A stretch of DNA of 64,000 bases. It comes from Plazaster borealis. Lineage: Eukaryota > Echinodermata > Asteroidea > Forcipulatida > Labidiasteridae. The stretch is from contig CM037461.1 of the NCBI GenBank assembly GCA_021014325.1, positions 3,497,501-3,561,500 of the forward strand, read 5' to 3'. Under the pieces are notes generated by a model. It had not been told where the DNA came from, made no database searches, and was given only the letters and a program-made list of their open reading frames with translations. Made by a program: the position numbers and the translations under genes. This document shows, in pieces, positions 5,481 to 39,313 of the stretch (positions within the stretch are counted from its first letter, which is position 1; each line of letters opens with the position of its first letter).

Positions 5481-6147
5481 ATGGCCATCGCAGGGATGTT
5501 TCAATTCCTAGTCATGACCTGGCTGCTGGTCGTTGCCGTCAGCAGCGGCAGCACAAACCAGGACCAACCCATGGAGATTCTGCGACGCGAATGCATCAAC
5601 TTGACCCTCCACGAGTCACGCCGCCCCGAAGAACCAGACGCCGACGTACCGATACCCCTGCAAGCCTTCTTCAACAAGTCCGTTGAAAAATGGCTGACTA
5701 AAGACAACAGCTCGATTACACAAAAAGGGTTTCAAGACATCCTCGATTACTCCATGGAGAACTTGATCCTGCTTGACGTGTTTGGTAAGATAGCTGAACA
5801 GGTTACAGAGGCATCCGTACACTGGGGACGAGTTATCATGAACATGACAACAAACCACGTGAATGACACGGAGGTACACCAACTCGACATGACCACTGTG
5901 ATGCCGAAATCAAAAGGTCGAGGTGACCCCGAAGCGGGACGTGTAAACGACCAATCTCCTACGCCAACATCACCACCCGAGGAGATAAGCGTCCCGAGGC
6001 GGGCAAAACATCTCCGCAGACTCGCTTCCTATGGCATGGCTTTCTTTTACGAACAGCAAGCCGAGACAGGCGACCCGCCACCGTTTGAACAGTTTCTTGA
6101 CGGCCTGCTGCAAGAGCAAATATCAGAAGCCTTAAAGAAACCACATG
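5481..6147 (+). CDS. Gene 1 exon 1: signal peptide and first half of a four-cysteine module
   Basis: This is the first coding exon of an unrecognised secreted protein, 222 codons plus one base. The ATG has a strong context (A at -3, G at +4) and is the first in frame. Residues 1 to about 23 form a signal peptide with the hydrophobic core FLVMTWLLVVAV. Cys38 (ECINL) opens a module shared with gene 2. A helical stretch follows (LILLDVFGKIAEQV, about 94-107), then a Pro/Ser/Thr-rich loop, then the module signature LRRLASYGMAFFYEQ (from residue 178) and PFEQFLDGLLQEQ. Several N-glycosylation sequons are present (NLT, NKS, NSS, NMT, NDT). The exon ends at G|GTACGT in phase 1. A pyrimidine-rich TTCCTTTTCAG ending at 5465 could be the acceptor of an upstream 5' UTR intron. 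The function is unknown; extracellular location is inferred from the signal peptide. Confidence 0.87.
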
Positions 6148-6227
6148 GTACGTATGGTATATGTTTAAATCACTATTTGGGCTTTACTTTAATAGTTACC
6201 ATTACCCCCAAGTCGATTTCTCGTAAT

Positions 6228-6830
6228 GGCATTTCGTGACCGAGCGGTCAAGCGCACCGGACTCGAACTCTGCCGTCGATTTCACCAAACTCTTCCTAAC
6301 TTAGGATTAATCTTAGGACTTAGGACGAGTCCCAGCCCATGCACTGTAACATGTAAACCTTAAGATTAATCCTAAGTTACTCGAGATAGGATTAATCCTA
6401 ACGTTTCGTGAAATCGGCTGCTGGTGTTTGAGATCAGCAGAGTCCCGGTCTTGGCACTAGCAAGATGCTTTACCAGTAGGCCTAATGTTTCGTCCTTCAG
6501 ATGGGACGTTAAGCCGTAGGTCCCATGTGTGCACGGTATACAATGGGATATCTGGGCGTATGAACACATCAATCAGCTTTGACCTCATGTGTATAATGCA
6601 CGTAAAAGAACCCGGCGGTTACCCCTATTACTAAGAGAAGGTGTTTGCCCAGTATTTCTGCAGAATGCACCGCGCACCTTGTAAACCCTTTAAGGTGTTA
6701 CATAATTCAACAAATTCAAAAGCTTGTCTGAAATGTTTTTCTTTGTTCAAGCGCCTTGAGTACCTAATATAGATACGAGCGCTATGTAAGACTCCGGTAT
6801 TATTGTTGTGCACGTCTGCATAAGGTTAAT
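6228..6830 (+). repeat. tRNA-derived SINE in gene 1 intron 1, interrupted
   Basis: The tRNA Leu/Ser-like head (GTGACCGAGCGGTCAAG, then CACCGGACTCGAACTCTG) is followed after an insertion by GGTGTTTGAGATCAGCAGAG and CCCGGTCTTGGCAC, the usual order of this SINE family. The tail runs through CCTTGAGTACCTAATATAG to a short ATTATTG. The head is split by a foldback element at about 6275-6418. It is not a functional tRNA. Confidence 0.75.
6275..6418. mobile_element. Small foldback element inside the SINE
   Basis: Inverted arms: GATTTCACCAAACTCTTCC with TTAGGATTAATC on the left, and GATTAATCCTAACG with TTTCGTGAAATCGGC on the right. The insert interrupts the SINE between GAACTCTGC and GCTGGTGTTTG. Probably a non-autonomous inverted-repeat transposon. 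Confidence 0.6.
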
Positions 6831-6836
6831 ACAGCA

Positions 6837-7525
6837 AATTACCAGACTTTGGACACGAAGCGGGTAAAATCCAAGCATATCCCACCGCTGACACCATATG
6901 CCGTTAGTTCATACCAGAAGCTGCTGATATTTTCCTCGATGGCTTGACCCGCTCGTGTACATAAACCATTATCTATTTTGCCTCGACATCATCTGTACAG
7001 GAGGGCGGGTAGTGAAACAAAGGGTGAATTCCAACCCTATCCCACCGCTGGCACCATATCCATAGTTCATATCAAAAGCTGCTGATATTTCCCTCGATGG
7101 CTTGACCCACTAGTGTACATAAACCATTATCTATTTTGCCTCGACATCATCTGTACAGGAGGTGGGTAGTGAAACAAAGGGTGAATTCCAACCCTATCCC
7201 ACCGCTGACACCATATCCATAGTTCATATCAAAAGCTGCTGATATTTCCCTCGATGGCTTGACCCGCTCGTGTACATAAACCATTATCTGCCTCGACATC
7301 GTCTGTACAGGAGGTGGGTAGTGAAACAAAGGGTGAATTCCAACCCTATCCCACCGCTGACACCATATCCATAGTTCATATCAAAAGCTGCTGATATTTC
7401 CCTCGATGGCTTGACCCGCTCGTGTACATAAACCACTCTCTAATGTTTTTCCTCGACAGCATATGGACACGACGCAGGGAATAAAACAAAGGATGAATTG
7501 CAAGCCTATCCCACCGCTGACACTC
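6837..7525 (+). repeat. Tandem array built from the intron 1 / exon 2 junction
   Basis: Four degenerate copies precede the real exon 2 start, at about 6837, 6981, 7139 and 7291, with the genuine junction at 7451; spacings are 144, 158, 152 and 160 bp. Each carries a CCTCGACA-type acceptor region and a version of GAATTCCAACCCTATCCCAC, matching the exon sequence GAATTGCAAGCCTATCCCAC. The copies diverge from the exon after GCTGACAC and run into stops. They look like expanded, now decaying duplicates of an acceptor plus about 60 bp of exon. Confidence 0.85.
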
Positions 7526-7870
7526 GTGAGTTAAACGACCTCAAGGCAAACCTAACGCGCCGTCTAGAGTTCGTCAGGAGACTGATGACAATAAGAAAAA
7601 AGGTGCAAATATGGTTCACTGATGTGGAACAAAACTACACTTCAAACGACAAGACCATTCCCGCTTTCTTTAGAAACATTTGCAATCAGAACATGGACCG
7701 CATCACCTGTAAGACCTGCCCGGCTGTGAGCCAAGAAGTTAACTCAAGCCTGGAGACGCTGAAACGTAATCTCCAAGAGCCGTTATCGATTCTCCAACAT
7801 GAGCTGCAGAGTGTGTCGAGTGAGATCGGCGAGAGGTATCGAAGATTCATGGCCGAAAAACGGAGAAAGG
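7460..7870 (+). CDS. Gene 1 exon 2: second half of the four-cysteine module
   Basis: The acceptor is CCTCGACAG ending at 7459. The exon starts with two bases that complete the codon split at 6147 (G+CA, Ala223), and the reading frame stays open to the donor G|GTAAGT at 7870/7871, again phase 1. Residues 223-359 read YGHDAGNKTKDELQAYPT, then a helical segment, then the cysteine triplet Cys297-x8-Cys306-x2-Cys309, then a heptad-like C-terminal helix (LKRNLQEPLSILQHEL) ending in a basic MAEKRRKG. The same triplet and following helix recur four times in gene 2. There is no stop, so at least one further exon is expected; I could not find it. A family A transposon begins only 36 bp after the donor. 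The matching phase and the homology make the exon very likely real. Confidence 0.87.
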
Positions 7871-7906
7871 GTAAGTGCATTAACCCATATCCACCTGTAA
7901 CAGTAC

Positions 7907-8286
7907 TTAAAGGCACTGTACACGTTTGGTAATGACTCAAAATATTATATTAGCATAAAACTGACTTAGTAACGAGCGACGGAGAGCTGTTGATAGTATA
8001 AAACATTGTGAGAAACGACTCCCTCTGAAGTAACGTAGTTTTTGAGAAAGAGGTAATTTCTCACTAAAAAAATAAAAGACTTCTTGTAAGAATTGCCTTT
8101 TATTCCTATCTGAAAGCACACAAATTTGTACAACAAGGATGTTTTTTCTTTCATCATTTTCTTGCAACTTCGATGACCAATTGAGCCAAAATTTTCACAG
8201 GTTTGTTATTTTATGCATATATTGGGATACACCAAGTGAGAACACTGATCTTTGACAATATTACCAAAAGTATTCAGTGCCTTTAA
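7907..8286 (-). mobile_element. TTAA family A copy just after gene 1 exon 2
   Basis: TTAAAGGCACTGTACACG to TATTCAGTGCCTTTAA. It starts 36 bp inside the intron. Confidence 0.86.
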
Positions 8287-8697
8287 ACACTTTTCTTTGC
8301 CTTAGCCCCTGTAGCGCTTTTATAGGCCAAACAAAAACATTATTAGTTTGTCCTCATCGCGACCGATTTTTTTTATTAGGTGTTCGTGCAATACAAGGAC
8401 GAACACCTCCTTGTTATATAAATATATTATTATTATTATTTTTGTTTTTTACAATTCTTTTTCATTAAAATTCTCCAATACATTTGTCAAAAAATGTTGA
8501 AACAGGAAGAAACTATATATTGAATATAAAGCAGTTTACAAATCCACGGTGTTCATACATTCCTGACTTTTTATTCTGGTGAAAAATCAGTACTGCAGAA
8601 GTGCTATGCACTCATCGGCTGGTAGCTCCCGGTAAATCATTCATCTCAACAATATAAAATTCTGTTGTTAGGGTGTTAAAATACTATTCAAAGACAT
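8287..8697. other. Unassigned DNA with small hairpin and ATT microsatellite
   Basis: AGGTGTTCGT and ACGAACACCT form a 10-bp stem near 8379-8410; a short ATT run lies near 8425. Nothing else recognised. Confidence 0.5.
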
Positions 8698-9069
8698 TTA
8701 AAGGCATGGACACGTTTTGTAATTGTCAAAGACCAGTATTCTCACTTGATGTATCCCAACATATGTATACAATAACAAGCCTGTGAAAATTTGGCCTCAA
8801 TTAGTCATCGAAGTTGCAAGAAAATGATGAAAGAAAAAACACCCTTGTTGTACAAATTTGTGTGCTTTCAGATAGGAATAAAAACTTCTTGCAAGAAGTT
8901 TTTATTATTTTAGTGAGAAATTACCCCTTTCTCAAAAACTACGTTACTTCAGAGGGAGTCGTTTCCTACAATGTTTTATACTATCAACAGCTCTCCGTTG
9001 CTTGTTACCAAGTAAGTTTTTATGTTAATATTTGTTTTGAGTCATTACCAAACGTGTACGATACTTTAA
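8698..9069 (+). mobile_element. TTAA family A copy
   Basis: TTAAAGGCATGGACACG to GTGTACGATACTTTAA, plus orientation. Confidence 0.85.
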
Positions 9070-9687
9070 TAAAATACCTCAATACAGTAAAATTGTTGTG
9101 TTTTGTGTTTGGACTTAATATTTAAATACCAAAAGACTTTATATTCCCAAATACAATATCCATATAACAAAATATATTTAAAAAAACTACCGAGCCTACC
9201 TTTTCAGGACCCTCTATGGACAAACAAACAAATTGTTTTGCTTTATTTGTGCGTTACAATCACCATTCATTATTTACTACCTTGCAAATAATCATCCAGG
9301 GCTCTAAATTTACACTGGACCGCAGGCCTGAGGCCAGTGGTTTTAGCGTCGGGCCAGTGAACTTGTGACCGGACAAGTCCAGTAGCCTTTTTTTCGAATA
9401 ATAATCACTCGCCTCATCTATAGTTTTACAAATTATGTTCAAATGATGACTTTAAGTCCAATCTGAAAGTGTTACCAATAATGCAAATCAGATACCTGGT
9501 ACTTGTTCAAATAAAAACAGTTTCATTGTGACACTGTGTATATATATTTTTTTCTCATTTTGATTCTGGTCTTGTAACAAAGTTCTGGTCCAGTAAAAAC
9601 TGTCAATTACAAGCCCTGTGGTCGTGTGTTTTTCCCATCAAATTCGAGCCCTAATATCCCACTGTTGCAAAGAGCATATAGTTCTCT
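9070..9687. other. Unassigned non-coding DNA
   Basis: AT-rich; no gene, repeat or motif recognised. Confidence 0.5.
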
Positions 9688-10057
9688 TTAAAGGTACGTT
9701 TGGTAATTACTCAAAATATATATTAACATAAAAACTGACTTGGTAACGAGCAACAGAGAGCTGTTGATAGTATAAAAACATTGTGAGAAACGACTCCCTC
9801 TGAAGTAACGTTGTTTTTGAGAAAGAGGTAATTTCTCACTAAAATAATAAAATACTTCTTGCAAGAAGCCTTTTATTCATATCTAAGAGCACACAAATTT
9901 GTACAACAAGATTGCTTTTTCTTTCATCATTTTCTTGCAACTTCGATGACCAATTGAGCCCAAATTTTCACAGGCTTGTTATTTTGTGCATATACTGGGA
10001 TACACCAAGTGAAAACACTGGTCTTTGACAATTACCAAACGTGTTCAGTGCCTTTAA
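9688..10057 (-). mobile_element. TTAA family A copy
   Basis: TTAAAGGTACGTTTGG (shortened left end) to GTTCAGTGCCTTTAA. Confidence 0.84.
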
Positions 10058-10549
10058 CATGATATTTGTTTTGCCTTGTTCCCTCATTCTTATGACTAGT
10101 TATGAGAGTACAAAGATATACACTAACTTCTTGTTCATCTTTACGGGTTTTCCCGTATTTATGCGCTAACTGTGTTTGTGTGTTCTAAAGGAAATTACGT
10201 AGTTAGGCAGGAATGGGTTAACTTTTTTTAGTTGTCATCATCAGTGGCATAACCTGAGTGATGGGTAGCCCCCGCCCCGCCCCTCCCAAATGAACCCCAA
10301 ATATTTCACAAATGAATGTTTCGATACATTAAATAGCCCCCCCCCCACAGTTATATCTTTTCCCCATTATGTCTTTGCCCCCCCTATTTGTGTCTTTTCC
10401 CCCTCCCCAGCTTGCTCAACCCCACCACTAATTAAAATGTCCACGCCATAAGCTATCATGTCTAAGTTACCAAACTAAGTTACCATCAGGTTGGTCTCCT
10501 GATAATACAATTTAAGAAACAGACATAGTTAAATGACAAATTGATGTTG

Positions 10550-10597
<48 letters not shown>

Positions 10598-10990
10598 TGT
10601 TTTTTGTTTTGGGGTTTGGGTTTTTTCGGGTTTTTTCTTCTCTTAGGATAGTGCCAAAGGCTTGTGGAAACGAACTTCTGTCTGAAAGTATCCTTTGGAC
10701 CACTTTTCATTTCAATGCCCCGTCGCATCCCCCCCCCCCTACTCCCATAGTAGAGAATTGTGCCACATATTTGTAGAATCGACTCAAGACTATTTCTGCT
10801 GATTACCGTAAGTTCTTTCAACAGCGCCCCCACAGTTCACTTTATTTGGGGGCGTTGGCTGTCGTTTCACTGTTGGTGAGAGAACCTCAAGAGCTGCATG
10901 TTTCCCCAAAGCAAACATCGCCATCAGTTCCCGACAGAAATAGAGGGCATTTATAAGATTCAGTTTCTCATCTATTTACAAAGTCGTCGC
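10058..10990. other. Unassigned DNA with C-runs and a CTG repeat
   Basis: Several C8-C9 runs and a triplet array at 10543-10595. No supported gene. Confidence 0.5.
10543..10595 (+). repeat. CTG/CAG trinucleotide repeat
   Basis: About 17 GCT triplets with interruptions at both ends. No coding context is supported. Confidence 0.9.
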
Positions 10991-11346
10991 TTAAAGGCAC
11001 AGTACACGTTTGGTAATTACTCAAAATATATAATAGCATAAAAACTGACCTGGTAACGAGCAACAGAGAGCTGTTGATAGTATAAAACATTGTTGCAAGA
11101 AAAGGATGAAAGAAAAAACACCCTTGTAGTACAAAAGTGTGTGCTTTCAGATAGGAATAAAAGGCTTCTTGCAAGAAGTCTTTTATTATTTTAGTGAGAA
11201 ATTACCTCTTTCTCAAAAACTACGTTACTTCAGAGGGAGTCGTTTCTCACAATGTTTTATACTATCAACAGCTCTCTGTTGCTCGTTACCAAGTCAGTTT
11301 TTATGCTAATATATATTTTGAGTAATTACCAAACGTGTACAGTTTA
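10991..11346. mobile_element. Rearranged family A copy forming a long hairpin
   Basis: It starts in minus orientation (AATTACTCAAAATATA), then switches near 11095 to plus-orientation sequence, so both ends are the same arm, inverted. The right terminus is truncated to GTACAGTTTAAG. Confidence 0.75.
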
Positions 11347-11518
11347 AGCAGCTCGATGCAAATGGCCCTGTAGTTAGTTTCTGTACTGTGGTATGGACCC
11401 CATTGTGACGTTGTGTGTTTTAAAGGGCCACATTGCTTGCAAATCTCTCAGCATTTTGCTGTTTGGAATTCCTTTTTATCGTTTATATGAAATGTCCATG
11501 CACTAAAACACCCAATTC

Positions 11519-11634
11519 ATGGCTTGTCGTGGCCGAGTGGTCTACTGCATCGAACTCAAGTTATGATGGTTCAATCACCAGAGTATGGGTTCGAATCCCG
11601 GTCATGACACTTGAGCAAGGCACTTAAAGGCCCT
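11519..11634 (+). repeat. SINE 5' part, split by a family C element
   Basis: GTCGTGGCCGAGTGGTCTAC and GGGTTCGAATCCCGGTCATG, ending GAGCAAGGCACTTAA, where the SINE normally continues with CATAATTGCTTC. Confidence 0.8.
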
Positions 11635-12185
11635 GTACACCATTGGTATAGATCGAAATACACAAATGTTCACAGATTCACACACAACTTACATGATTTA
11701 AAGTAAGTAATTGTAGAAAGGGTTCCTTTTAAAATATTTCTGCCTAAAATGCTATCGTTTCTGAGAAATGAGTAAAACAATAGTTTTTATCACGCGCGAT
11801 ATTTTGAAAAAAACAGAAAACAAGGTCTCTTTTCGCTACTTTCTCGTGATCTCGATGACCAATTGACCATATTTTTGACCGCATGAGGGCGCTTTCTTCA
11901 GGGAGTGTCTTGCATCACAATTACAGTTTCATCTTATTTTAATTGCCTGTATGTAGTTTTCTTGCATCATCGACGAAATACATAAACATAGGAATAACAA
12001 AAATGAAAAAAACCTGTTTGTTTACTTTTTTTCATCACGTAAAAATTGGTCCACAAACGCCCTCACGCGGTCAAAAATACGGCGAATTGAGCTCAAACTT
12101 TCACAGGTTTGTTTGTTCATGCATATGTTGAATCACACAAAATGTGGCACTGATTTTGAGCTGTTACCAAAAGTGTACAATATTG
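11631..12185 (+). mobile_element. TTAA family C element inserted in a SINE
   Basis: Left end TTAAAGGCCCTGTACACC; right end AAAGTGTACAATATTGTAA. The inner arms GACCGCATGAGGGCGC and GCCCTCACGCGGTC are inverted. The SINE resumes immediately afterwards, so the insertion duplicated TTAA (now GTAA on the right). Confidence 0.75.
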
Positions 12186-12389
12186 TAACCATAATTGCTT
12201 CTCTTAATCCAGGTGTATAAATGGGAACCTGAGAGGGCTGAGACAGTATTGTGTTGTATTAAACCCCTTAGAGCTAATTTAAGCAGCTTGGGGTTGTATG
12301 CTCCTCGGAAAAGCATTGATCTAGCTCAATATGTGCGCTACATAAGAAACCATTATTATTATTATAAAATAGTGGCAATTGTATAGCGC
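12183..12389 (+). repeat. SINE 3' part
   Basis: It resumes with CATAATTGCTTCTCTTAATC and ends in a short ATT run followed by a GCGCTT-like tail. Confidence 0.7.
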
Positions 12390-12772
12390 TTAAAGGGACA
12401 CGTTGCCTTGGATCGGACGAGTTGGTCAACAAAAAAGCGTTTGTAACCGTTTGTTATAAAATGCATATGGTTAGAAAGACGTTATACAAGTAGAATACAA
12501 TGATCCACACAAATATGCTTCGAAATGGCGTGGTTTTCCTTTTACTTTGTGAACTAACACCGTTACACGGTCGGCCATTTTGTGGAGTCAAAATGTTGAC
12601 TCCACAAAATGGCCGACTGTGTTTGTTCACGATGTAAAAGGAAAACATATTTGTGTGGATCATTGTATTCTACTTTTAAAACATCTTTCTAACCATATGC
12701 ATTTTATAACAAACGGTTACAAATGCTTTTGATAGACCAACTCGCCCGATCCAAGGCAACGTGTCCCTTTAA
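12390..12772. mobile_element. TTAA family D near-perfect hairpin element
   Basis: TTAAAGGGACACGTTGCC to GGCAACGTGTCCCTTTAA, with roughly 190-bp inverted arms meeting at the perfect palindrome around 12600 (TTTGTGGAGTCAA, AATG, TTGACTCCACAAA). No coding capacity. Confidence 0.88.
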
Positions 12773-13559
12773 ATCCATCACTCAGCGATGCTCATGGCGC
12801 TCCAACATTATTACCCCTGGTCACTGGGCCATTTATTTCATTGTAATTAGTGAGTAATGATTAATAAACCGTCGCCCAGTTGAAGGGCATAAGGTACGCC
12901 GTAAATAACAAAATGGCTTCTGACAAAAAAAGTGGCATTACTGTTACATGTTTGTGGCTAGAATTACCCCCAAAGAGATGTTTTCTCATTCCCATGCAGA
13001 ATTTAACCTTCCTATGATGACTATCGAATGGCGCAGAAAACTGAGCACACTTTCACGCTGGGTTTTTCTTGAAACACAATTTTGCGCATGAATTGCTTTC
13101 TCCCTTTCTCCGCTAACTGTTCGTAATGTCCTTCTTCCACGGATATGACAAAACATAAATATTCGCCTCTTGAATTACAACCAGTGCACCACGAGGTCCG
13201 CCATTTTGTAGAGTCAAAAATGTGGTTCTACATAATAGCGGACTGTGTTCTCTCATGAAATTACAGGGGAAAAAAACCGCACTATTTCGGGGATATTTAT
13301 GTAGAACAAACCCTTTGTACTGCCCAAAGCGCTCAATTCGAAGGCAACGTTCCCGGCCTTTTAGGCTTGTCAAAATAGACAGGTGTAAGAATTGTGCTGA
13401 GGCGTGGGGGCTATATGTCACATGGTGTATAGACGGTCAATAGGCTGTCAAATGTAGATAATATTGTCATAACGCACGAAAATAATGTCAACATTGTACT
13501 GCAACGCCCTTGTGGTACGTTGTCAACACATGTCAGCTCATAAACTCTGCTAACCGTAA
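12773..13559. other. Unassigned DNA with a decayed family D relic
   Basis: 13190-13355 keeps GGTCCGCCATTTTGTAG, AGAGTCAAAAATGT and GAAGGCAACGTTCCC from family D. Nothing recognised in the rest. Confidence 0.5.
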
Positions 13560-13953
13560 TTAAAGGCATCGTACACGTTTGGTAATGACTCTGAAAATTT
13601 GTGGCAATAAAAACTTACTTGGTAAGAAGTACAGCAGCTTTGGATAGTATAATGCATTTTAGAAACATTTAACTTTGAAGTAATGTGGTTATTGAAAAAT
13701 ATATCACTTTTTATCCCCAAAATATTTTGAATATTGAGAAGCGTTACGGTAACCTTCTCAGAGTGTGTATTCCAATTGCAGATTATTCTTCCTGCGTGGA
13801 CATAACCGCTCCAGATTTTTGGCAATATCTCAAAAACGCTACCACTTTTTGAAATGAAATTTTCACAGGTTAGTTTTATGGTATATATCTACAACTATAT
13901 AGGATTGAAACAAACAATAGGCTCCAATTACCAAACGTGTACGATGCCTTTAA
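13560..13953 (-). mobile_element. TTAA family B element
   Basis: TTAAAGGCATCGTACACG to GTGTACGATGCCTTTAA. The outer 30 bp are shared with family A, but the body differs (CAGCAGCTTTGGATAGTA, CTTCCTGCGTGGACATAAC). Confidence 0.85.
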
Positions 13954-14015
13954 AGCAGAAGGCTTCTAGCTTGCCGGCGGTGTTTGTATAGTTGCCCCCA
14001 CTTTCATAGCGCTGC

Positions 14016-14390
14016 TTAAAGGCACTGAACACGTTTGGAAATTGTCAAAGACCAGCGTTCTCACTTGGTGTATCCCAACATATGCATACAATAACAAGCC
14101 TGGGAAAATTTGGGCTCAATTGGTCATCGAAGTTGCAAGAAAAGGATGAAAGAAAAAATACCCTTGTTGTACATGTGTGCTTTCAAATAGGAATAAAAAC
14201 TTCTTGCAAGAAGTTATTATTATATATTTTAGTGAGAAATTACCTCTTTCTCAAAAACTACGTTACTTCAGAGGGAGTCGTTTCCTACAATGTTTCATAC
14301 TATCAACAGCTCTCTGTTGCTCGTTACCAAGTAAGTTTTTTTTGCTAATATTTGTTTTGAGTCACTACCAAACGTGTACGATACCTTTAA
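14016..14390 (+). mobile_element. TTAA family A copy
   Basis: TTAAAGGCACTGAACACG to GTGTACGATACCTTTAA; inserted after CATAGCGCTGC, a recurrent target. Confidence 0.86.
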
Positions 14391-14591
14391 AGCTTTTTCA
14401 ATAGGTATAGGGAAGGTTTGTTTTACGTTTTTTCAATGATTTATTTATCTAAGTTTGTTGTCTACATGTCCAGGTGTTGCGTGGGTTAATGTAGACATTA
14501 TTTGATTAATTCATCAATTTAAATAATTTGTTTCATCTACCATTGACAAATTGTATGGTGTTCCATATGTGCCACTCCTTTGGAAAAAATA

Positions 14592-14885
14592 ATTCCGTCG
14601 CATTTTTTTTTTCCGTCGCATTTTTTTTTTTTGCGTCGCATTTTTTTTTTTCCGCCTTTTTTTTTTTTTTGCGTCGCATTTTTTTTTCCCGTCGCATTTT
14701 TTTTTTTTCCGTCGCATTTTTTTTTTTTGCGTCGCATTTTTTTTTTTTTGCGTCGCATTTTTTTTTTTGCGTCGCGTTTTTTTTTTTGGCGTCGCATTTG
14801 CTTTTTTTTTTCCGTCGCATTTTTTTTTTTGCGTCGCATTTTTTTTTTAAGGCGCCTTTTTTTTTTTTAAGGCACATTTTTTTTA
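14592..14885 (+). repeat. T-run / GCGTCGCA minisatellite in the left arm
   Basis: About 15 units of 9-12 T followed by GCGTCGCA or CCGTCGCA, ending in AAGGCGCC and AAGGCACA variants. The matching position in the right arm (16280-16503) is an almost pure A tract. Confidence 0.9.
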
Positions 14886-15480
14886 TGAAAAGGTCACGTG
14901 ACCGTCACAGGATGTCCATGTGATTATTTTTTTGCTCCGCTATTGCAGTTGGCGTGTGAACAATTCTATTCTTCTCAATTCTATTCTTCTCCAGGGTTGC
15001 GGCCATTGCTGTATTACAATTCGTTACAACTGTTTTTGACCATGTAGTGTTAAAACGCGCGCGTCTAACATTTTTTTCAAGTGTTGAAACATACTGCTTT
15101 TCTATAATTAATGCATGCCTAATTCACATTGTGCGTGGGACGCGCGCGTATACTAAGTGAGGCCAACGCAAAAAACAAAGGAAACACAATTTACATTCAA
15201 AATTAATGTCCCACACCCGTCATCTGTGGCACCGCTGTTGCGAAAAAATATAACCATTCCATTCTAGGGGGTAATGATAACTGATCTCTTGGCTAGCGGG
15301 TTTCTGTCGCACTAGCACTGTAATACACGCTTCCGTTGCTCGGTTTTTTTTTTAACTGTTCTTCTCCATTCCTGGAAGACCTTAGAGTCATGTTTTAGTG
15401 TATTTGGTAGCCTTAATAGCCCAGTGTGTCGTGTCCTTTTTAGTTTAGGGGTAAAGACTTAACTTTAAGTACTTAAGTAG

Positions 15481-15720
15481 GCAGGGGCACAGGCACTTGC
15501 TTGCTTGGCACAAAAATTTCAGAGAGAGAGAGAGTCCGAAGGCAGCTAGCATTACACAGGACGCAGACACGGGACACACACACGGCAGCAGGGCAGCAGC
15601 GAGAGCTTATCTCGGCGAGTATCTCGCGGCGGAAACCGCGCGACAGAAACCCCAGCCGCGATAGCTGTACCTGGAAGCTCATGAACATGTGGGAGAGGTA
15701 GGGAACCAGACCACTAACTA
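15481..15720 (+). other. GC-rich segment in the centre of the long inverted-repeat element
   Basis: It holds a GA run (15519-15534), CpG-rich sequence and an exon-like ATG AAC ATG TGG GAG AG followed by GTAGGG. It could be a captured host 5' exon. No homology recognised. Confidence 0.3.
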
Positions 15721-28164: not shown

Positions 28165-30110
28165 CGGTCGACCCAGGTCTGACCCCAGTGCGCTCGAGTA
28201 CATCATTGTCGTGGCTCACCCAGGTTGAACCCAAGTACCCTGCTTGTGGAGCGGGTTGCTTGGGGCTGACCCTTCTGCATGACGTCACGACGAAAAACTT
28301 TCTCAATTGCCACCATTTTGTTTGTAATTTAGCAGGACTCTTTCAGTAAGTTTGACAAACAGTTTCACCCTTAACCTTCCGAGCAGCCACGGGAGAAAAA
28401 TTACATGCTGGACCCACTGGAGGCGCTTGGAAGGCAGATTGTATTACTGTGTTTGGGGGCACAATTCTTTTTTCTAATGATCTGAACAGACGAATAGATG
28501 TTCCCTGGACCCACCCACTAAAGATTGAAGCATTCTTGAAATTAACACGTTGGTTCACTACTAATTTTCAAAACCTAGTATATTTCGAAAGGATTAAGTT
28601 TTTGTGCACACACTAAGATTTGTGTGTGCACGTTATAATGTGACCCAGCTTTCCCACACTATTTGTCAACCTCTGAGTTCACTCACCCATAAATCACTAC
28701 AGTATATGAAAGAGGGGTGTTTTAATAAAGGTAGTTAAAAACAAAATCAGCGGAATTGATCCACACATTTTGTAGTTATTAAAAGTATACCTTTGGTCTT
28801 TGGAACCGTTCGACTGCTTAACCATATACAAATGGAGATATATACAGTAAAACTAACCTGTGTGTGAGTCAGGAGAAAAATAATAGTGAAAAACCATGCA
28901 CAATTTTCAGCATGTTAACACATTGTCCTTAATTTTGGCTGTAACAACCGAAATCAGCTGTTTTTAGGTTTTCAGATGCAGTTTTCTCGATTATAACTTC
29001 ATTTTAGAGGGATATATTTCACTGGGGTAAATGGTTCTAGTATGAAATTCATAATCAGTAAGGTTTCAGAATAAATTTCAGCAATGATGTGTTTTATAAT
29101 TACCATACTGTTTAATTTAAATTAAATTTTTTCCGAAATTTATTTTTGAGAAAACCTCAAAATTCGAACAAAATCAAGCTTACACCTCACTTACTCGCCG
29201 AACAGGTCTTACAGAAACGTTCGCACTGAAGAAGAAAAGAAAAAACCTCCAGTAAAGCTACGACACCAAAATATTCAACAGGTTCTGAATTACCTCTGCG
29301 TTAATCTCGATGAAGGTCAACCTTGCTCCCAACAATGCCTTCTAAAATTACCCCCTTGCAATTTTTTCCCCATGGCTCGCGTCAAAAAACCTTCAAATAT
29401 CGATCTTTCCACGAGCCGCTTTGTATAGATAATTTGTTGACCGTCACGAGGACCACGACGTGTTTTGATGAAACTCCACGAGGCGTCCATCAAAATAAAA
29501 TGGCTCGTCACCTTGGGGGAGGGCAAACAAAGAAACGAACCTGGTGCTATTTAAAAAAAAATTATATATACTTCTTAGGAAAACGAATATTTCTCGACAT
29601 ATACTGAACACAAAACAGTTATATAGATTAGGTTAAGGATGGTATATATTTGTTTTGTTGTTTGTTTGGGGACTTCTCGTTTATTTGTTGTACTTATTTA
29701 GCTAGATTTTAATGATTAATTTATTTGTTTATTAATGTATTTTTAAATAATAAAAAAAAACATTTATTTAAAAATAATTCGAGTGTGGCATGTTTTAGAT
29801 CATTTATGGACCTTTCTATTGTTGATAAACAAGCCACGCTGGTTGGCATGGGCGACCGAAAGTTAGCAAAAAATTCAATCGTGTTAACACATGTTTTTAC
29901 TAAATTCAACATTTCTGCAAACTTCCAAATTAAAAAAAAATGCACCCCGTGTTTGGTTGCTTTGTTTCCAACAAATTCAACACTATTTTTGTGTAACATT
30001 GTTAACAAACTGTGGATATAGGCCTATCTGTTTTTGCTTTTCATTTAAGACTTCCCGTAGTTTTTCCAACCTTGGTTGACAAAAACTAGAGCTTTGACGA
30101 TGCAATAGAA
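28165..30110. other. Unassigned, apparently unique DNA
   Basis: No transposon recognised. A minus-strand frame at 29317-29526 starts MPSPKVTSHFILMDASWSF in locally CpG-richer DNA and might be a first exon, but has no homology I can name and no decisive splice site. Confidence 0.35.
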
Positions 30111-30129
30111 AGGTCTATTAAGGCCATAA

Positions 30130-30592
30130 GCAGCGCCATCTTGGATTTTAATAGCGCCATCTTGTATTTTAGTAGCGCCATCTTGGATTTTAATAGCGCC
30201 ATCTTGGATTTTAATGACGCCATCTTGTATTTTAATAGCGCCATTTTGGATTTTATTAGCGCCATCTTGGATTTTAATAGCGCCATCTTGGATTTTAATA
30301 ACGCCGTCTTGGATTTTAATAGCGCCATCTTGAATTTTATTAGCGCCATATTGGATTATAAGAGCGCCATCTTGGATTTTAATAGCGCCATCTTGGATTT
30401 TAAGAGCGTCGTCTTGGATTTTTAATAACGCCATCTTGGATGTTAATAGCGCCATCTTGGGTTTTAATAATGCCATCTTGGATTTTAATAACGCCTTCTT
30501 GGATTTTAAGAGCGCCATCTCGGATTTTAATAGCGCCATCTTGGATTTTAATGGCGCCATCTTGGACTTTCATCATAATGCGGCGCACAGTG
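30130..30592 (+). repeat. 21-bp minisatellite, about 22 units
   Basis: AGCGCCATCTTGGATTTTAAT at exact 21-bp spacing. Because 21 is divisible by 3, all frames look like repetitive proteins; none is supported as a gene. Confidence 0.92.
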
Positions 30593-30783
30593 AGGTTTTT
30601 CTCCACAGAGTTGAAACCTTCAAAAGCGCAGCCATCTTTGTTGGGTTCCTAGTGTTCCGCTTGTGTTTTTTAGTACTAATGATATAAATCTACAAAGAAA
30701 CCAGTCTATTTCAACGCCTTGCAAAAATGTGTTCCTAAAGTAGAGAACGGGCCGAGTGGGAGTTGATGAGGTGCTTCATGTAC

Positions 30784-31012
30784 CATGCCCGATATGGGGC
30801 GGGAGGGTACCCCCCCCCCCGCCCCCAATGTTCCAATACCACAATATTTTCCTCTTGTGCAGGAGTACCCTAACATTCTCTGAGGAATTCCTGAGATTCC
30901 ATGGCTGAGCGGATAAGAACAGCGGACTCGAACCCTGGTGTTTCTGATCAGTAGAGTGTGGGTTCGAGTCCCGGTCGTGACACTTGTGTCTGTAACCCTG
31001 TAGTTCCTGCAC
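30784..31012 (+). repeat. CCCGATATGGGG repeat followed by a SINE head
   Basis: 30784-30900 matches 19970-20110. 30903-31000 has GGCTGAGCGGATAAGA and GGGTTCGAGTCCCGGTCG. Confidence 0.65.
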
Positions 31013-31546
31013 AGTTCAAATTTCAAAAGATACATAAAGCTTACTATGTACGTACCTTTTTCTTTAATATTTGTCATCGAATAACAGATTGTTTCAAGTT
31101 CAGAAAGGATCAGAGAACAACAAGTGCACCTCGTTGTTGGCTACCGGTAATTTTTATGGCGCTTTTATGGTTAAAATTAACACAATTGTTTTTGAAGGCT
31201 TTTTAATTACCTGGCATCAAATGCTTATACCGATTAATACTAAGGCAAAAGTTTTTGACATTATCATCATGAAAGAAAATTACATGTTTATTGGTTAATG
31301 AGCGTGGTGTTGCGGTAAGAGCTTCACAATTCCATCACCATTAGCGTTAACATTTTTACTAGTCAACTGTGAATGGGGAAATTATTCATGAGTTATATAA
31401 ACGATTGCCCTTGACTTGACTATCTAGTTTTATTTGGATGTTACGTTTTTTTTATACCATCACACGCTGGTGAGCGTTTCCTCTTACCGCATGTTTTGTA
31501 TCCCTTTGGGCGGCTGGGCGGTCGCTGCGGTCCAGTGGCTAAAAGG

Positions 31547-31885
31547 TTAAAGGCACTGAACACGTTTGGAAACAAGCAACGGAGAGCTGTTGATAGTATA
31601 AAACATTGTAGGAAACGACTCCCTCTGAAGTAACGGAGTTTTTGAGAAAGAGGTAATTTCTCACTAAAATAAAATAATAAAAACTTCTTGCAAGAAGTTT
31701 TTATTCCTATCTGAAAACACACAAATTTGTACAACAAGGGTGTTTTTTCTTTCATCATTTTCTTGCAACTTTGATGACCAATTGAGCCCAAATTTTCACA
31801 GGCTTGTTATGTTATGCATATGTTGGGATACACCAAGTGAGAACACTGGTCTTTGACAATTACCAAACGTGTACAGGGCCTTTAA
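31547..31885 (-). mobile_element. TTAA family A copy, internally deleted
   Basis: TTAAAGGCACTGAACACG, then a jump to CAAGCAACGGAGAGC, to GTGTACAGGGCCTTTAA. Confidence 0.83.
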
Positions 31886-32700
31886 ATGACAAATCTGCGA
31901 TGACATAATATTTTTTCTCATGACATACTCCGACTGTGTGCCAAATTCCATGCTTGTATCATTCAATTTGATAGGCACAATTCCGCCAAATAATTCCCCT
32001 ATCTGCCACACTGAAATACAGTCACCTATTTGTAAAATGGATACGAAGATGACTATTCTGGGTTTTTTTAGGTGTGATTGATTTCTTACATTGCTCAAGA
32101 TTGTCTTTCTTTGATGATTTGTTAACCCAGGTCTTTGATTGGTTTTAGTGTTTTCCCCTTTTTCTTACTGCGCGTTTTGTTTTATATTGCTACGTTACCA
32201 CGATACCTTTAAAAACAGATATTTGGTCGAAACACCAGCAATTTTCAAAGTTTTCCAATTGGCTGACATTGCTTGTAATTCTACCTATGTTTTTTTTTTT
32301 CAAAGGACAAGTCTTCGATGGCTCTTTTAGCCAGTCCTTCTCATTGCATTCTCTGACTGTGTGCTCAATTTTATGATTGTACGAGCAAAGGCAAATAATA
32401 TCACCTGCCTGCCGTAATATTATTGGAAGTTGCTCTTTTCGAAGCCCTGGCTCCTAGAAGATGCTCCCAACAGGTTAATTTTTAACTGCCTTGTTTTTAT
32501 TTTTTTTTATTTACAGCTTAAAATTGTCAATATAGTCAAATAAATTGCAATCGAAACGGGTTTTTAAAGCGACCAATTTTTTTTGTGTGCAAATTTCTCC
32601 TCCAAATTGTGAAAAACATGCTCCAGATTTTACGAATCAATATAATTTTTCTAGGCTAACTACTCAAAAATTGATAAACTCCCGTTATTTGTTAGCAATA
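31886..32700 (-). other. Unassigned DNA with possible minus-strand coding relics
   Basis: A frame near 31880-32098 contains LQIGDCISVWQIGELFGG and VPIKLNDTSMEFG. It looks protein-like, but no family or exon borders can be named. Confidence 0.25.
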
Positions 32701-32721
32701 TAGTGCACATTCTGTCTAGTT

Positions 32722-33153
32722 TAAGGTTCAAGGGATAAACTAATCTATCCCCTCCTCTTTTTTCGCTTGGTTTGAGCAGATGATAAAAATATTTATCCCT
32801 TCCACTTTTCGTCTGGGTTTTAGGAACAAGGGATGCAAAATTCTATCCCCACCTCTTTTCGGCTGGGTTTGAGGAACAAGGGATACAAAATACTACCCCT
32901 CCTCTTTTCGGCTCGGTTTGAGGAACAAGGGATACAAAATTCTATCCCCACCTCTTTTTGGCTAGGTTTGAGCAACAAGGGATCGAAAATTCTATCCCCT
33001 ACTCTTCTCGGCTGGGTTTGAGCAGCAAAGAACATAAAAATCTATCCCCTCCACTTTTCGGCTGGGTTTGAGCAACAAGGGATAGAAAATTCTATCCCCT
33101 ACTCCTTTCGGCTGGGTTTGAGCAGCAAAGTATACAAAATTATATCCCCTTTT
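32722..33153 (+). repeat. 50-bp minisatellite, 8-9 units
   Basis: GGCTGGGTTTGAG recurs at 32861, 32910, 32960, 33010, 33060 and 33110, with TCTATCCCCTCCTCTTTTC between. Confidence 0.92.
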
Positions 33154-33599
33154 TAAATTATTACCACTCGAACCACAAATAAACTCTCTTTTTTGTCAGC
33201 TTTCTCAATAATGAAGTTTACATTGAAAATAAAAAGGTGTGCGTAATTTTCTTTGATATTATGATGCAATAATAGTTTGGAGTAAAAAAATGTGGCAAAT
33301 TTGTTTGCTAACAAAAAGGTATAAATCAAAAGACTGTTTAAAATATTGTTAAAAGTGCACCCGATTCTTACTTTGTTCCCTCAGCAATATTTTATGAAGA
33401 AAAACACATGATTTTAACATTTTAAAAAACAACTTCAAGAAAAGCTGCTATTTTTATGAAGAAAAAAAAAGTAAAATATGAAAAACTGTATTTAAAAATT
33501 AACCTGTTTCCCATACTTTTTAATTTTCTGCCTTGTCAAAATATGCATTCATGGTTACTTCTTTAATTAATTATAAATTTTTTGTGATGTATTGTTTAA

Positions 33600-34329
33600 A
33601 ATTTTCCATGAAGTATGCCAATAGTGTGAGTTTGAATCGAACTGAAAAGATAATCATCGCGGGTACCCAAATACTTCATTAGTTTCTTATTAAAGGCATC
33701 GTACACGTTTGGTAATTACTCAAAATATATATTAGCATAAAAACTGACTTGGTAACGAGCAACAGAGAGCCGTTGATAGTATAAAGCATTGTGAGAAACG
33801 ACTCCCTCTGAAGTAACGTAGTTTTTGAGAAAGAGGTAATTTCTCACTAAAATAATAAAAACTTCTTGCAAGAAGTTTTTATTCCTATCTGAAAGCACAC
33901 AAATTTGTACAACAAGGTGTTTTTTCTTTCATCATTTTCTTGCAACTTCGATGACCAATTGAGCCCAAATTTTCACAGGCTTGTTACTTTTTGCATATGT
34001 TGGGATACACCAAATGAGAACACTGGTCTTTGACAATTACCAAACGTGTACGATGCCTTTAAAGCTTCAAATTGGTTCCCATGCGGTTGAACAAAAATGG
34101 CAAATGCACGTTAGTTACGCATGTAATAGTTCCTTTACGGGTATAAACTTCATTTTCCATGAAGTATGTAAATAAATAAACAAATGTGAGTTTGAACTGA
34201 ATTGATAAGATAATCATCGCGGGTACCCAAATACTTAATTAGTTTCTTATTAAAGCTTCAAATTGGCTCCCATGCGGTTGAACAAAAAAGGTAAATGCAC
34301 GTTAGTTACGCATCTAATAGTTTGTTTAC
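33600..34329 (+). repeat. Tandem duplication of about 190 bp, first copy holding a family A insertion
   Basis: Copy 1 is 33604-33693 plus 34059-34147; copy 2 is 34150-34329. Shared: GGGTACCCAAATACTT, AGTTTCTTATTAAAGCTTC and GCACGTTAGTTACGCAT. Copy 2 keeps the empty transposon site. It lies just upstream of the gene 2 5' region. Confidence 0.88.
33690..34062 (-). mobile_element. TTAA family A copy with a paralogous empty site
   Basis: Left junction TTTCTTATTAAAGGCATCG, right junction CGATGCCTTTAAAGCTTC, empty site TTTCTTATTAAAGCTTC at 34243-34259. Confidence 0.93.
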
Positions 34330-34935
34330 GGGTATAAACACCACAGCAACTGGCAGATTTTTAGTGCGTGGAAACTATTCTGTGATTGGTAGCGGCACAG
34401 TGGGAGAATGGAAGCTTCCGATTGGACGGCTGTGATTGTGGGCGTGTCTTCATCCACGACTGCACGACATAAGGTTGTGGCTAGTCGTGTCGATTTCAGT
34501 CGAACTTGAACGTGCGGACAAATTACCACGTGGCGCTTGCGACCAGAAAACAAATCTGTGTACTTGTTACAAAGGGAATTTCAAAGAAGAGTTTTTTATC
34601 TGTGTTGAACAATTGTTAATCGCTGTTCCAAATTACACCATTTATTTATCGGAAGGAGGAGAGGCTTGAGGAGGTTTGGAGGGGCAAGAGGGCCGGCAAC
34701 TACCAGGTTGTTCCTGTAATCAGGTAGGCTTATAACAAATCTAACTATTTCAACAGATATGTAAACTTTTGAAGTATTGGCATATTGTGGATGACATAGG
34801 TCTCTACCGTTGTACGTTTTAAAGTTGTTGTATACCGGTTACCCAAGGACTCATTTGATTGGCTTCAATAATTTACTCGTTTGTGGGTGGTTTGACGATT
34901 TGTTGGGGGGCAAGGTTTTTGGTGATCCGACGACT
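34330..34935 (+). promoter_or_regulatory. Presumed 5' region of gene 2
   Basis: About 600 bp with no recognised transposon, richer in GC and CpG than its surroundings, directly upstream of the gene 2 ATG. It contains a CACGTGG E-box-like site near 34530 and a donor-like CAG|GTAGGC near 34721 that could end a 5' UTR exon. No TATA box is obvious. Promoter assignment rests on position only. Confidence 0.35.
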
Positions 34936-37900
34936 ATGGCTTGCCTACGGGCTTGGTTCGTTGCCGTTAGCTCCCTAGTTGTCTGCCTTTCAGTGCTGGC
35001 CCAAGAAGATATCGTACCCAATGTGCTACCCGTCTCCGAAGGCTACTGTTTTTCTGTTGAGTCGGTTGGTGGCATCCTTAAGGACATCGAAGCCGCTCAG
35101 TTTCCCCGGAGTGACGCTTTTGGGTTTTCTCGGTTATACAAGCTTTGGGAGAGGCGTTTCCCTCAAGGGGCCCCGATTTGGACAGAGAGCTTCAAAAAAG
35201 CTGTGAACGTGTCCGGGGCCGATCTGATGAAAGTAGCCGTTTACGAACGCCTGTTCCTGCAACTTGAGCCAATTCTCAGGCGCGTTGAGGATTCCCCTAA
35301 CACAGAAGACCCCAAAGCGCATTACATCCAAGATAACGTCAACTTGTCCGCAGAATTGAAGAAATTCGGTCTCTATGGCATGCTCCTCTACCCAAGCCAA
35401 GCCATACTACAAGTACACGGCCTCCAGTCAGACGAACTTGTTTCCGCAGAGAAGAGGGATCGTCAATTCGAAGGGTATCTCGAAAACATCTTCGCTCTTT
35501 TCGCAAATAAGATTGTTCCTGTCATATTCGAGGGCGATTATGTATACCTTTTAGACGCTGCGGGTAACTTAGGTGGGATGCAAATCGCTAATCCGATTAG
35601 TCTAATCCAGCAAGAAATTCAAACGGCATTTGCAAATGTGATGGCACAATCTGGCAACTACATACATTTTTGTCTAGGGAACACGTCGTGTTTAATCTGC
35701 GAGGGACCGTTGTTTTTCACAATCTATGAAAAGTCCTTAAAATCTAAAGTTGAGGAATTTCACAACCGAATGCTGACACTCGGCCGCGAACTTCAGCTTC
35801 TCCTTCATGCTTCAGACGCGGACGGTTCGACTGGTGAGAGCTTAACCGGAAAAGATGGCGATGCTGACGGCACACCAACCGGAACAGGTGGCGATGCTGA
35901 CGGCACACCAACAGGAACAGGTGGCGATGCTGACGGCACATTCGCCTGGTCGGACGGAGACGCTGACGGCGCGATCAACTGGCCGTACGTAGATACTGAC
36001 GGCACCTCACCTGGTACAGATGACCAACACAATATGACAGGGAAAAGGAACATCCTTCCCGTTCCAACATCGATGTCAATCCTGATTAAGAATAAGACCT
36101 GCCGCTCTTTCATGTTCGGCCAGAAAAAGCGCACGTACAGGCCATATCTTTCTGGTGTTAACCCAGAAGAGTTGAGGGGGCTCCTGATGAACCTTATTGA
36201 TACTTTCAACTGGGACATCGCGCTCGAGAACAAAGACGGTCAAATCAGGGAGTTACTCAACGAGATTGCACAGAAATCAACCGTACCTTTGTTAAGGTTG
36301 GAAACATTAGATCGGTGCATGAATCTAACCATCAGAGCTCTGAGTTTCGCCGTTGATCTTAAGGCAAGTGTAACTAGAGCATACGATATGGAAGGTGTGT
36401 ACCAGTATATCCCATACAACACACAAGGTAACATGGGTGAAGATGCCATCGCAAATTTCAAGACGGCAGCCCTGGCTGCTTTGCTTCTTTACGATAATGC
36501 AGAAGCGTCCACTACTCCGCTCGATGTCAGTGAAAAGCCGCAGACTTTGGAAGTCTTCACAAGAGATGCATTTCGTAAGATAAAAGAATACTTCCTATCA
36601 ACGACTTGGCAGACAACAGAAACAACATACTATGTTTCAGACTATCTTAATTTTGAAGAATTTCTTGATACAGTTGATAAGAATCTAGACATTTTCTTTG
36701 AGTCCCTTTCGAATGCACCTTTTATGTCAAGTGCACAATTATTTAGCATGATAGGCCCATTTTCTGTGCAGAATGAGTGCACTGACTCTGGTGATCTACT
36801 CTCCTGCAGTATATGCAACCAACCTGAAATGCTAACGTATTATACGCAACCGCTTGAAGCCATCAATCAAGCTCTAACGGCATACCACAACTCACTTGAG
36901 CAGAAAGCGAAAACCTTTCAAGAAAGGGTGGATACGCTCATCAAAAGCATGACACCCATTGATCCCTATGTTACGCAAACCGATGACACCGATACTGGTG
37001 GCGAAACGGGAGTCGATACCGACGATGGAACTCACACCGGCGACGGAGGGGGAGTCGATACTGACGATGGAACTCACACCGGTGACGGAGGGGGAATCGA
37101 TACCGACGATGGAACTCACACCGGCGACGGAGGGGGAATCGATACCGACGATGGAACTCACACCGGCGACGGAAAGGGTGACGACACCAGCGGTGTAACC
37201 GACGGCGATACCACTGGCCAGACAGAAGACGAAACAACCGACGAGATGGGGCATGACGAGACTTACATCAAAGATCCGGTACGCATGCAAGACCTCTTTA
37301 TCGACTCTTCTTCATTGTGCCGTGACATTAAAATCGCCATGGAGACCAGGGAACTAGATTTAATGGCGGTCGTTCCTGCCGATTTGAAGATGGAGTTAGA
37401 AAACCTGCAAACTCATGTAAACTGGGCGGATAGGGTTAATAAAGCTTTGACTGACGATACCCAAACGCCCCAGCAGTTACTCAACAATATCGCCCAACAA
37501 TCTACAAGTGGTTTGGTTCTCCTTGAGGCCTACCGTAGCATCTTCTATCAAACCGTCCAACTACTCAGAATCGTCGCTGAGCAGAAGTCTAAAATCGGTA
37601 ATCCGTTGCCCATGCCGCCCTCTATGACGTACACCAGTAGCAAAATCGAGAACAAGTTATTTAAAAGTTTCGAGCGAGCGGGTTTGGCCGCAGTGCTTCT
37701 CTATCACGAAGAAGTTACAACAGATTTAACACGAAAGCCCAGCACACACAACGAGGAATCAACACCGTTCGAGCAATTTATCGAAGGGGCAATCTTCCAG
37801 CTAGAAAATTACTACAAAATGAAACTTGGTCTCACTCAATTAAGTGAAGATGCCGACATTTGGAAATTGTTCAGTGACAACCTAGAGAGAGTACATGTTG

Positions 37901-39313
37901 AACTAGGTGACGTCATGTCGGACTTGAAGAGTGTCGAGGTAATGTCCTCCGACACCTGGAAACCCTTTAATGTTCATGAGTGCGACGTAATGTCGACAAG
38001 TCCGTCTGACTCCTTAAACGGACAAGTCTTTTACTCATGCCAGATTTGTGTCGACCCCGACATCTGGAGTGAACCCCCTGCTACGCGCCGGTTGGCTGCT
38101 GCATCTTTTAGTGGAATTGACGAATCACTCAATGAATACCACGACAATGTAATGAACATCGCAACCAGTTTGAAAGAGAAGGTAGATGAGCATGTAGAGT
38201 CCCAAGATCAAGGTGGCCTCGATGACGAAGTCACTGTTCTTCCTTCCCCTTCACAAGAAGAGCCCGGCGATAAAATTGACCCTAATCGATGCATAGGTTT
38301 AACAGCTTCTCAGAATTGGTTGATTGAAACTCCCGGTCAAGCCATGCTAAGTGACGCCCTGCGCGGGCTGGTTGAAAACTTTACGGTATCCTATCTGGAG
38401 AGGTCACAACAGCTTCGTCGCAAGTTGCAGGGAAATAGAAACATGATCACCTCATTTCTCCCCACAACCGTGGACTTCCAGTCTGAAGATGTTTTCAAAA
38501 TCATGATTGCCGCGGGCGTCGGTGAGGAGATAATGCATTCATTCAGAGAGATGTTGGGTATGCTGAAACCTGCTCAGGAGGCAAAGAACAAAACGGCTGA
38601 CGTCACCGCAGCGGGGAACCCATATTTTGACGGCACTTACACTGGGTACGGAGGCTACGAAAGGGCCACCGAGACAGATACCCTTCAATGGGGGATGATG
38701 CCCAATCGCCCGCATGGTCTCCTGGCAAATTTGAGCCTTCCCGGGGTATTGTTTTTCCCATCAAAAAGTACTCTGCAGTACATAAACACCACCCACTCGG
38801 TCACCATACCAGCCATCAACAGCTCCCTCCTCCGGCTTCTCGCTCCTTTCGAATCCAAATTATTTCAACCTACTATAACCGATAAATACATCTACACTCT
38901 CATCAAAACCATGATCTCAGAATTGATTGAAAAATGCAAAATGGAAAACATCGAGGCCGATGGCACGGTCAAGGAAGTATTTGCCACAGTGTTCGCTCAA
39001 GTAGACCTAACTGACACCCTCTCCCATATTTTCGCGGCTGTTGGCAACGTGTTCGGTGAGCAAATGGACGAAACAGACGAACTGGTAGCCGGTGCGTTCA
39101 CGCAGCAGTTGTCACCGCCTAGTCCAAGTTTATTAGATGTCCAATGCACGAGTGACAGAGAAAGAAACGCTATGTGTGACGTTTGTGTCAACGATGATGG
39201 AAAAAAGATGATGTCGATGCTCATGGGCGAAAGAACCGACGCCATCTTAGAACCTCTTCGCGAGATGCTCAAACAGCGTGCCGAAAAACTACGCATGTAT
39301 TTGAATCCAGACG
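34936..39313 (+). CDS. Gene 2: secreted protein with four four-cysteine modules and acidic repeat linkers
   Basis: One uninterrupted exon of 1459 codons plus one base. The first in-frame ATG has a strong context, and residues 1-23 are a clear signal peptide (hydrophobic FVAVSSLVVCLSVLA). Four modules follow. Their first cysteines are C38, C389, C795 and C1119. Their C-terminal triplets are C246-x5-C252-x2-C255, C615-x8-C624-x2-C627, C1016-x18-C1035-x2-C1038 and C1404-x9-C1414-x2-C1417. Each module has a GLYGMLLY / ALAALLLY / GLAAVLLY / SLPGVLFF signature (from residues 141, 508, 912, 1263), then an amphipathic segment such as FEQFIEGAIFQLENYY, and ends in a coiled-coil-like helix. Linkers are 11-residue GDADGTPTGTG repeats (about 294-375), 14-residue VDTDDGTHTGDGGG repeats (about 676-775) and a short one (1094-1118). 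The exon ends at G|GTGAGT, phase 1; reading through would add an unrelated 42-residue tail. Family not recognised; probably an extracellular structural or binding protein. Confidence 0.92.
35815..36045 (+). repeat. 33-bp coding repeats of gene 2 linker 1
   Basis: GGCGATGCTGACGGCACA recurs at 33-bp spacing, encoding GDADGTPTGTG units that degrade downstream (GDADGAIN, DTDGTSPG). The repeat stays in frame. The Asp/Gly/Thr composition resembles flexible or calcium-binding acidic linkers; binding is not shown by sequence alone. Confidence 0.8.
37012..37179 (+). repeat. 42-bp coding repeats of gene 2 linker 2
   Basis: Four nearly identical 42-bp units encode VDTDDGTHTGDGGG. High nucleotide identity between units points to recent expansion or homogenisation compared with the diverged modules on either side. 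Confidence 0.85.

Follow-up and report, generated by a model that had tools for sequence, protein, structure and literature searches.

The locus and its two module-bearing genes

The DNA analysed here is a stretch of 64,000 nucleotides of the genome of the starfish Plazaster borealis (GenBank assembly GCA_021014325.1, contig CM037461.1, positions 3,497,501 to 3,561,500, forward strand), which we call the window and from whose first letter all coordinates are counted. Two adjacent genes within it, gene 1 and gene 2, encode predicted secreted proteins in which a cysteine-containing, apparently helical module seems to occur five times: once in gene 1 (G1), and four times in gene 2 (M1 to M4). The predicted exons, modules and linkers are as follows.

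5481..6147, + strand: gene 1 exon 1, with putative signal peptide, opening cysteine, helix, signature and block; phase-1 end, donor GTACGT at 6148
7460..7870, + strand: gene 1 exon 2, with cysteine triplet and closing helix; starts and ends in phase 1, with donor GTAAGT at 7871
34936..39313, + strand: gene 2, one known exon, encoding a putative signal peptide followed by four modules; phase-1 donor GTGAGT at 39314
35038..35859, + strand: module M1, residues about 35-308; cysteines 38/246/252/255
35866..36087, + strand: linker M1-M2, Gly/Asp/Thr-rich, partly a 33-bp minisatellite with DADG motifs
36091..36984, + strand: module M2, residues about 386-683; cysteines 389/615/624/627, extra cysteine 461
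36985..37305, + strand: linker M2-M3, of 107 residues with a net charge of -30, including a 42-bp minisatellite
37309..38199, + strand: module M3, residues about 792-1088; cysteines 795/1016/1035/1038
38281..39312, + strand: module M4, residues about 1116-1459; cysteines 1119/1404/1414/1417, extra cysteine 1334; the weakest copy

The module runs from an opening cysteine through a helix, an aromatic signature and an FEQF-like block to a C-x(5-18)-C-x2-C triplet and a closing helix. In gene 1 exon 1 these landmarks are the cysteine at residue 38 (codon 5592), the helix LILLDVFGKIAEQ, the signature LRRLASYGMAFFY and the block PPFEQFLDG; the triplet, with codons at 7681, 7708 and 7717, lies in exon 2. 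The two exons join in phase 1, and no gene 1 exon was found 3′ of 7870. Upstream of exon 1, a TTTAAAAG box and a TTTTCAG site were noted by eye. Gene 2 is an uninterrupted 4.4-kb frame from the ATG at 34936 to its GTGAGT donor, and the DADG-type motifs of its acidic linkers could bind calcium. The codon-usage scores of gene 1 exon 1 (63), gene 1 exon 2 (25) and gene 2 (374) come from a table that was trained on these same three exons; the only independent scores are therefore those of two exons further downstream, described below.

Within intron 1 of gene 1 a 152-bp tandem array (6862-7523) extends into the start of exon 2, and its units hold diverged copies of the exon 2 acceptor region and first codons: two match the exon start at 81-82% over 72-73 bases, and a third at 92.5% over 40. 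A piece of a coding exon therefore seems to have been multiplied inside the intron of its own gene.

Past the donor at 39314 the gene 2 frame enters a dispersed genomic repeat, and when the full frame was compared with the genome, 29 of the 30 matches scored (from 1,562 candidates) fell within its last 52 residues. The repeat piece itself lies at about 39283-39438, at and past the donor, and recurs at 29 other places among those 30 scored. A frame at 39558-39692 (score 12) was tried as a further gene 2 exon and rejected, because part of its peptide reappears in an unrelated frame at 96145-96306 (by eye).

That both products are secreted, as the first-pass annotation proposed, is consistent with their signal-peptide-like starts and with what follows these in the known exons. 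Membrane helices usually reach a mean hydropathy of about 1.6 over 19 residues; the highest such values past the signal peptides are 1.30 (gene 2) and 1.03 (gene 1), and the known exons thus hold no further hydrophobic segment. The N-glycosylation sequons of G1, 9 vs 2.3 expected, also fit an extracellular product; M4 has 5 vs 2.1 and M1 has 3 vs 1.1.

Evidence for one repeated module

Two observations are plain: the cysteine layout, and the relationship of M2 to M3. The claim that the opening cysteine is residue 38 in both genes was borne out, for gene 1 and for M1 of gene 2, and in gene 2 each of the four CxxC motifs has a preceding cysteine at the spacing given above, with one opening cysteine for each module. 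When the 18 cysteines of gene 2 were placed at random, four such triplets arose in none of 200,000 trials. M2 and M3 are certainly homologous, matching each other at E 5.6e-16 with 27% identity in the genome searches.

The other nine pairs are weak when taken one by one, the best uncorrected p being 0.01-0.02; taken jointly, in a register test, they fare better. Cysteines were masked, M2-M3 was omitted, and the best ungapped 12-residue blocks of the nine pairs were compared with those from 1,500 shuffles, which preserve composition but not helical periodicity. Thirteen of 45 blocks lay at the same relative position in their modules against 5.4 expected, a result matched by 3 of the 1,500 shuffles; the corresponding counts were 7 for M1 and 42 for G1 taken singly, and 37 when G1 and M1 were compared with M2 and M3. 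An earlier run with other settings and 150 shuffles gave p from 0.007 to 0.033. The common blocks include LKKFGLYGMLLY / LRRLASYGMAFF / FERAGLAAVLLY, GMLLYPSQ / GVLFFPSK and PFEQFLDG / PFEQFIEG. A profile built from M2 and M3 also made two matches in register, to the helix and signature of M1 (P 0.0021) and, in gene 1 exon 2, to the triplet region (P 0.018); on gene 1 exon 1 it matched at the FEQF block only (P 0.12), and on M4 at the cysteine triplet only (P 0.072).

These data bear on whether M2 and M3 alone are related, with M1, M4 and the gene 1 segment being unrelated helical stretches that reuse Leu, Ala, Glu and cysteines. The marginal, uncorrected scores of the other pairs, the restriction of the M4 match to its triplet, and the blindness of the shuffles to helical periodicity would all fit such an origin, as would the frequency of the pattern C-x(4-20)-C-x2-C by itself, of which there are 118 instances in chance frames across the fetched loci. 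We nonetheless consider it unlikely, because the joint cysteine layout, the masked register and the profile match to M1 all speak against it. We accept as real the repeat that had been proposed for the two genes, with five copies of one module, of which M4 is the least firm.

Known families and further copies

The module had been called undescribed, and so it stays in the libraries that we searched. With six rows as queries (M1 to M4 and the two gene 1 exons), there was no significant match in Pfam, where the whole frames were searched also (best E 0.014), or in NCBIfam (best E 0.0065, at 15.5 bits vs a cut-off of 400). The gene 2 frame had no match at E <= 1 among PDB sequences, and the module profile found nothing there better than E 0.34 (apolipoprotein A-IV). 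Neither gene 2 residues 1-1460, nor an alignment of M1 to M3, nor spliced gene 1 had a match in a collection of 5.8 billion proteins that is not known to contain echinoderm proteins, where the 7993 (gene 2) and 7996 (M1 to M3) candidates sharing most words were scored. We found no paper on such a module.

The weak Pfam matches to the helical families EPO_TPO, TPR_IPO5 and Focal_AT (E 0.17, 0.014 and 0.058) came from single rows, a different family for each and one row of the six in every case, and with 12.5, 13.4 and 13 bits they reach roughly half of the respective cut-offs (25, 27 and 23.3). Two AlphaFold models, made from 3 or 4 sequences, had mean values of 37.6 and 35.8 for the predicted local distance difference test (pLDDT), a confidence too low to show or refute a shared fold; both are mainly helical with a similar order of helices, and the M1 model has short strands. 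In the alignment behind the first model, the first triplet cysteine of M1 stood out of register. A Foldseek search with that model gave no match at E <= 0.001, the model being too poor for this to count.

Could the module be a very diverged form of a known helical domain (a helical cytokine, the GAIN subdomain A, an apolipoprotein-like bundle or similar), beyond the reach of sequence searches? The helical character of both models, and the sub-threshold matches to EPO_TPO and apolipoprotein A-IV, would be in keeping with this; such matches are, however, weak and differ from module to module, and Foldseek, for what the poor model allows, added none. We hold this to be possible, if rather doubtful.

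Further copies were sought in the genome of P. borealis itself (560.6 Mb in 717 contigs, with the window on contig C7, of 24.84 Mb). M2 and M3 each found itself and the other only, while M1, M4 and gene 1 exon 1 found only themselves; in all of these searches just 1-3 candidates were scored, such that distant copies could be missed. The 50-kb flanks on either side of the window gave module matches no better than E 0.31, and among 10 further window frames (of the 124 of at least 80 residues) Pfam recognised no family at E <= 0.01. The module is possibly restricted to one lineage.

A neighbouring sperm-receptor-type gene

Downstream of gene 2, at the right end of the window, begins another gene, to which two exons within the window appear to belong.

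49522..50920, + strand: gene 3 exon 1, with putative signal peptide and Thr/Ser/Glu-rich 74-residue repeats; phase-1 donor GTGAGC
62198..63202, + strand: acidic exon rich in Gly, Asp and Thr; starts and ends in phase 1; codon score 201, low complexity

We assign this gene to the family of the sperm receptor for egg jelly (REJ) and the polycystins, on its predicted domains. It carries a REJ domain (PF02010: E 1.3e-13, 50.8 bits vs a cut-off of 25 in one exon, and 12.8 bits in a second), which a genome scan also recovered at C7:3571024, and a GPS motif (PF01825: E 4e-6, 27.7 bits vs 22.5). Near 102650, 5.4 kb past the GPS motif, lies a hydrophobic helix whose mean hydropathy of 3.65 is the highest of 170 frames; its exon could finish either at a stop or at a phase-0 donor, and PLAT had no match in 10 frames around it. 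The gene starts inside the window, with the acidic exon at 62198-63202, and continues from 65732 to about 102750 in window coordinates, about 39 kb past the window. The acidic exon is in phase with a segment at 65732-65896, which resembles (by eye) the start of a REJ domain, and probably belongs to the receptor gene. Gene 3 exon 1, with TATAAAAGG at 49459 upstream of it as a TATA box of its own, and with its own signal peptide, is the nearest first exon to the REJ gene, has a phase that fits the REJ-gene exons, and scores 121 with a codon table not trained on it; we infer that it is the first exon of the receptor.

At 49825-50415 in gene 3, a Thr/Ser/Glu-rich unit of 222 bp (74 residues) is repeated 2.7 times; the copies match at 94%, so that the repeat is probably recent.

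Across the genome, REJ matches number 32 and fall into about 12 places, two of which, on contigs C685 and C143, have identical scores and may be duplicates; of 18 PKD channel matches, none is on C7. For two of these REJ places, other than the present one, 20 kb of upstream sequence was examined and held no module. Pfam found no REJ domain in either gene 1 exon or in the frame of gene 2, and the known exons of both genes hold neither a GPS motif nor a transmembrane (TM) helix. In section 6 of the sea urchin study (PMC1934368), SpREJ1, 8 and 9 have one predicted TM segment, a Ser-rich region lies close to the N-terminus of SpREJ9, as gene 3 has its Thr/Ser/Glu-rich exon, and the extracellular SpREJ domains listed are CRD, EGF, SUEL, PKD and WSC. 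The downstream gene is like the sea urchin REJ proteins in its REJ domain, GPS motif, hydrophobic helix after the GPS, low-complexity first exons and lack of a PKD channel match on C7, and may, as SpREJ1, 8 and 9 do, have a single TM segment; the known exons of genes 1 and 2, by contrast, contain none of REJ, GPS and TM, and the module is not among the SpREJ domains listed there. We found no paper on a starfish REJ locus.

Since the known exon of gene 2 stops in phase 1 and no second one was recognised, we considered whether the REJ receptor gene has an alternative 5′ end in gene 2, and perhaps in gene 1, spliced to the exon at 62198 to give a membrane receptor with a four-module ectodomain before REJ, GPS and TM. 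The phase-1 ends of the gene 1, 2 and 3 exons would suit the phase-1 start of that exon, the REJ and GPS domains do lie downstream of gene 2, only weak coding segments (scores 9-12) lie between 39314 and 49522, and the gene 2 linkers are slightly closer in composition to the 62198 exon (distance 0.70) than is the gene 3 exon (0.91). Phase 1 is, however, common among extracellular exons, which weakens the phase match; gene 3 lies nearer and has a TATA box, a signal peptide and a phase-1 donor of its own; and a Ser-rich N-terminus, of the gene 3 kind, is that of the predicted single-TM SpREJ9. We therefore think this arrangement quite unlikely. We give very little weight to a broader version, in which genes 1, 2 and 3 would be alternative phase-1 first exons (one-module, four-module and mucin-like) of a REJ-GPS-TM body, and the modules an echinoderm-restricted, fast-evolving family giving it interchangeable ligand-binding ends.

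Other elements in the window

A repeat of about 300-400 bp, looking by eye like a miniature inverted-repeat transposable element, carries variants of CACGTTTGGTAATTACTCAAAATAT near its ends and occurs in both orientations. Two tRNA-like loci are perhaps tRNA-derived repeats.

7910-8290, 8690-9080, 9690-10070, 11000-11340, 39710-40090, 60080-60460, 60690-60980, both orientations: copies of the repeat (by eye)
4971-5044, - strand: tRNA-Ser-like gene (Rfam 34.8 bits)
11521-11610, + strand: tRNA-Leu-like match (ARAGORN only)

A proposed multivalent extracellular protein

We propose, with a probability of about 0.6, that all five segments go back to a single extracellular domain and have since diverged, that in gene 2 they are strung like beads, and that the proteins most likely serve as matrix, coat or cell-surface binding proteins. 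The domain would comprise about 270-340 residues and be mainly helical, with its N-terminal cysteine probably bridged to the C-terminal C-x(5-18)-C-x2-C, a link that would fasten the closing helix to the domain's beginning. A single copy would be secreted from gene 1 and four from gene 2, the latter joined by flexible acidic linkers of which two are encoded by minisatellites. M2 and M3 would have arisen by duplication inside one exon, while M1, M4 and the gene 1 copy would be older splits. Each module would most likely offer one binding surface, which would make the product of gene 2 a multivalent extracellular protein.

Several points weigh against this proposal. The G1-M2 signal is lost when cysteines are masked (p 0.26 local, 0.16 global); M4 has no significant similarity to M2 or M3, its best partner being M1, and does weakly in the register test (140 of 1,500, top-5 blocks); and the M2 and M3 profile did not match one of M1 and M4, for which an automatic alignment with the triplets out of register was used. 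M2 and M3, the surest pair, have no sequon enrichment (1 vs 2.5, and 0 vs 2.2), and both AlphaFold models are below pLDDT 40. A fifth cysteine in M2 (461) and in M4 (1334) spoils a simple scheme of two disulfides, as the argument from an even number of cysteines fails in two of the five modules; bridges between modules are possible. Further 3′ exons of genes 1 and 2 may also encode a membrane anchor.

A role for genes 1 and 2 at the gamete surface is a guess, made from the nearness of the REJ receptor gene alone. Starfish egg jelly contains ARIS and asterosap, which are secreted reproductive substances. A full-text search for papers naming two of ARIS1/2/3 returned none; passages of PMC3528131 describe sugar chains.

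Should genes 1 and 2 belong to an ordinary orphan glycoprotein family, the module would chiefly extend the list of secreted domains restricted to one lineage. Should it stand, a domain missing from the reference libraries searched here is repeated within a single exon beside a sperm-receptor-type gene, and would be a candidate among the poorly known gamete or coat proteins of starfish, animals that are a classic model of fertilization.

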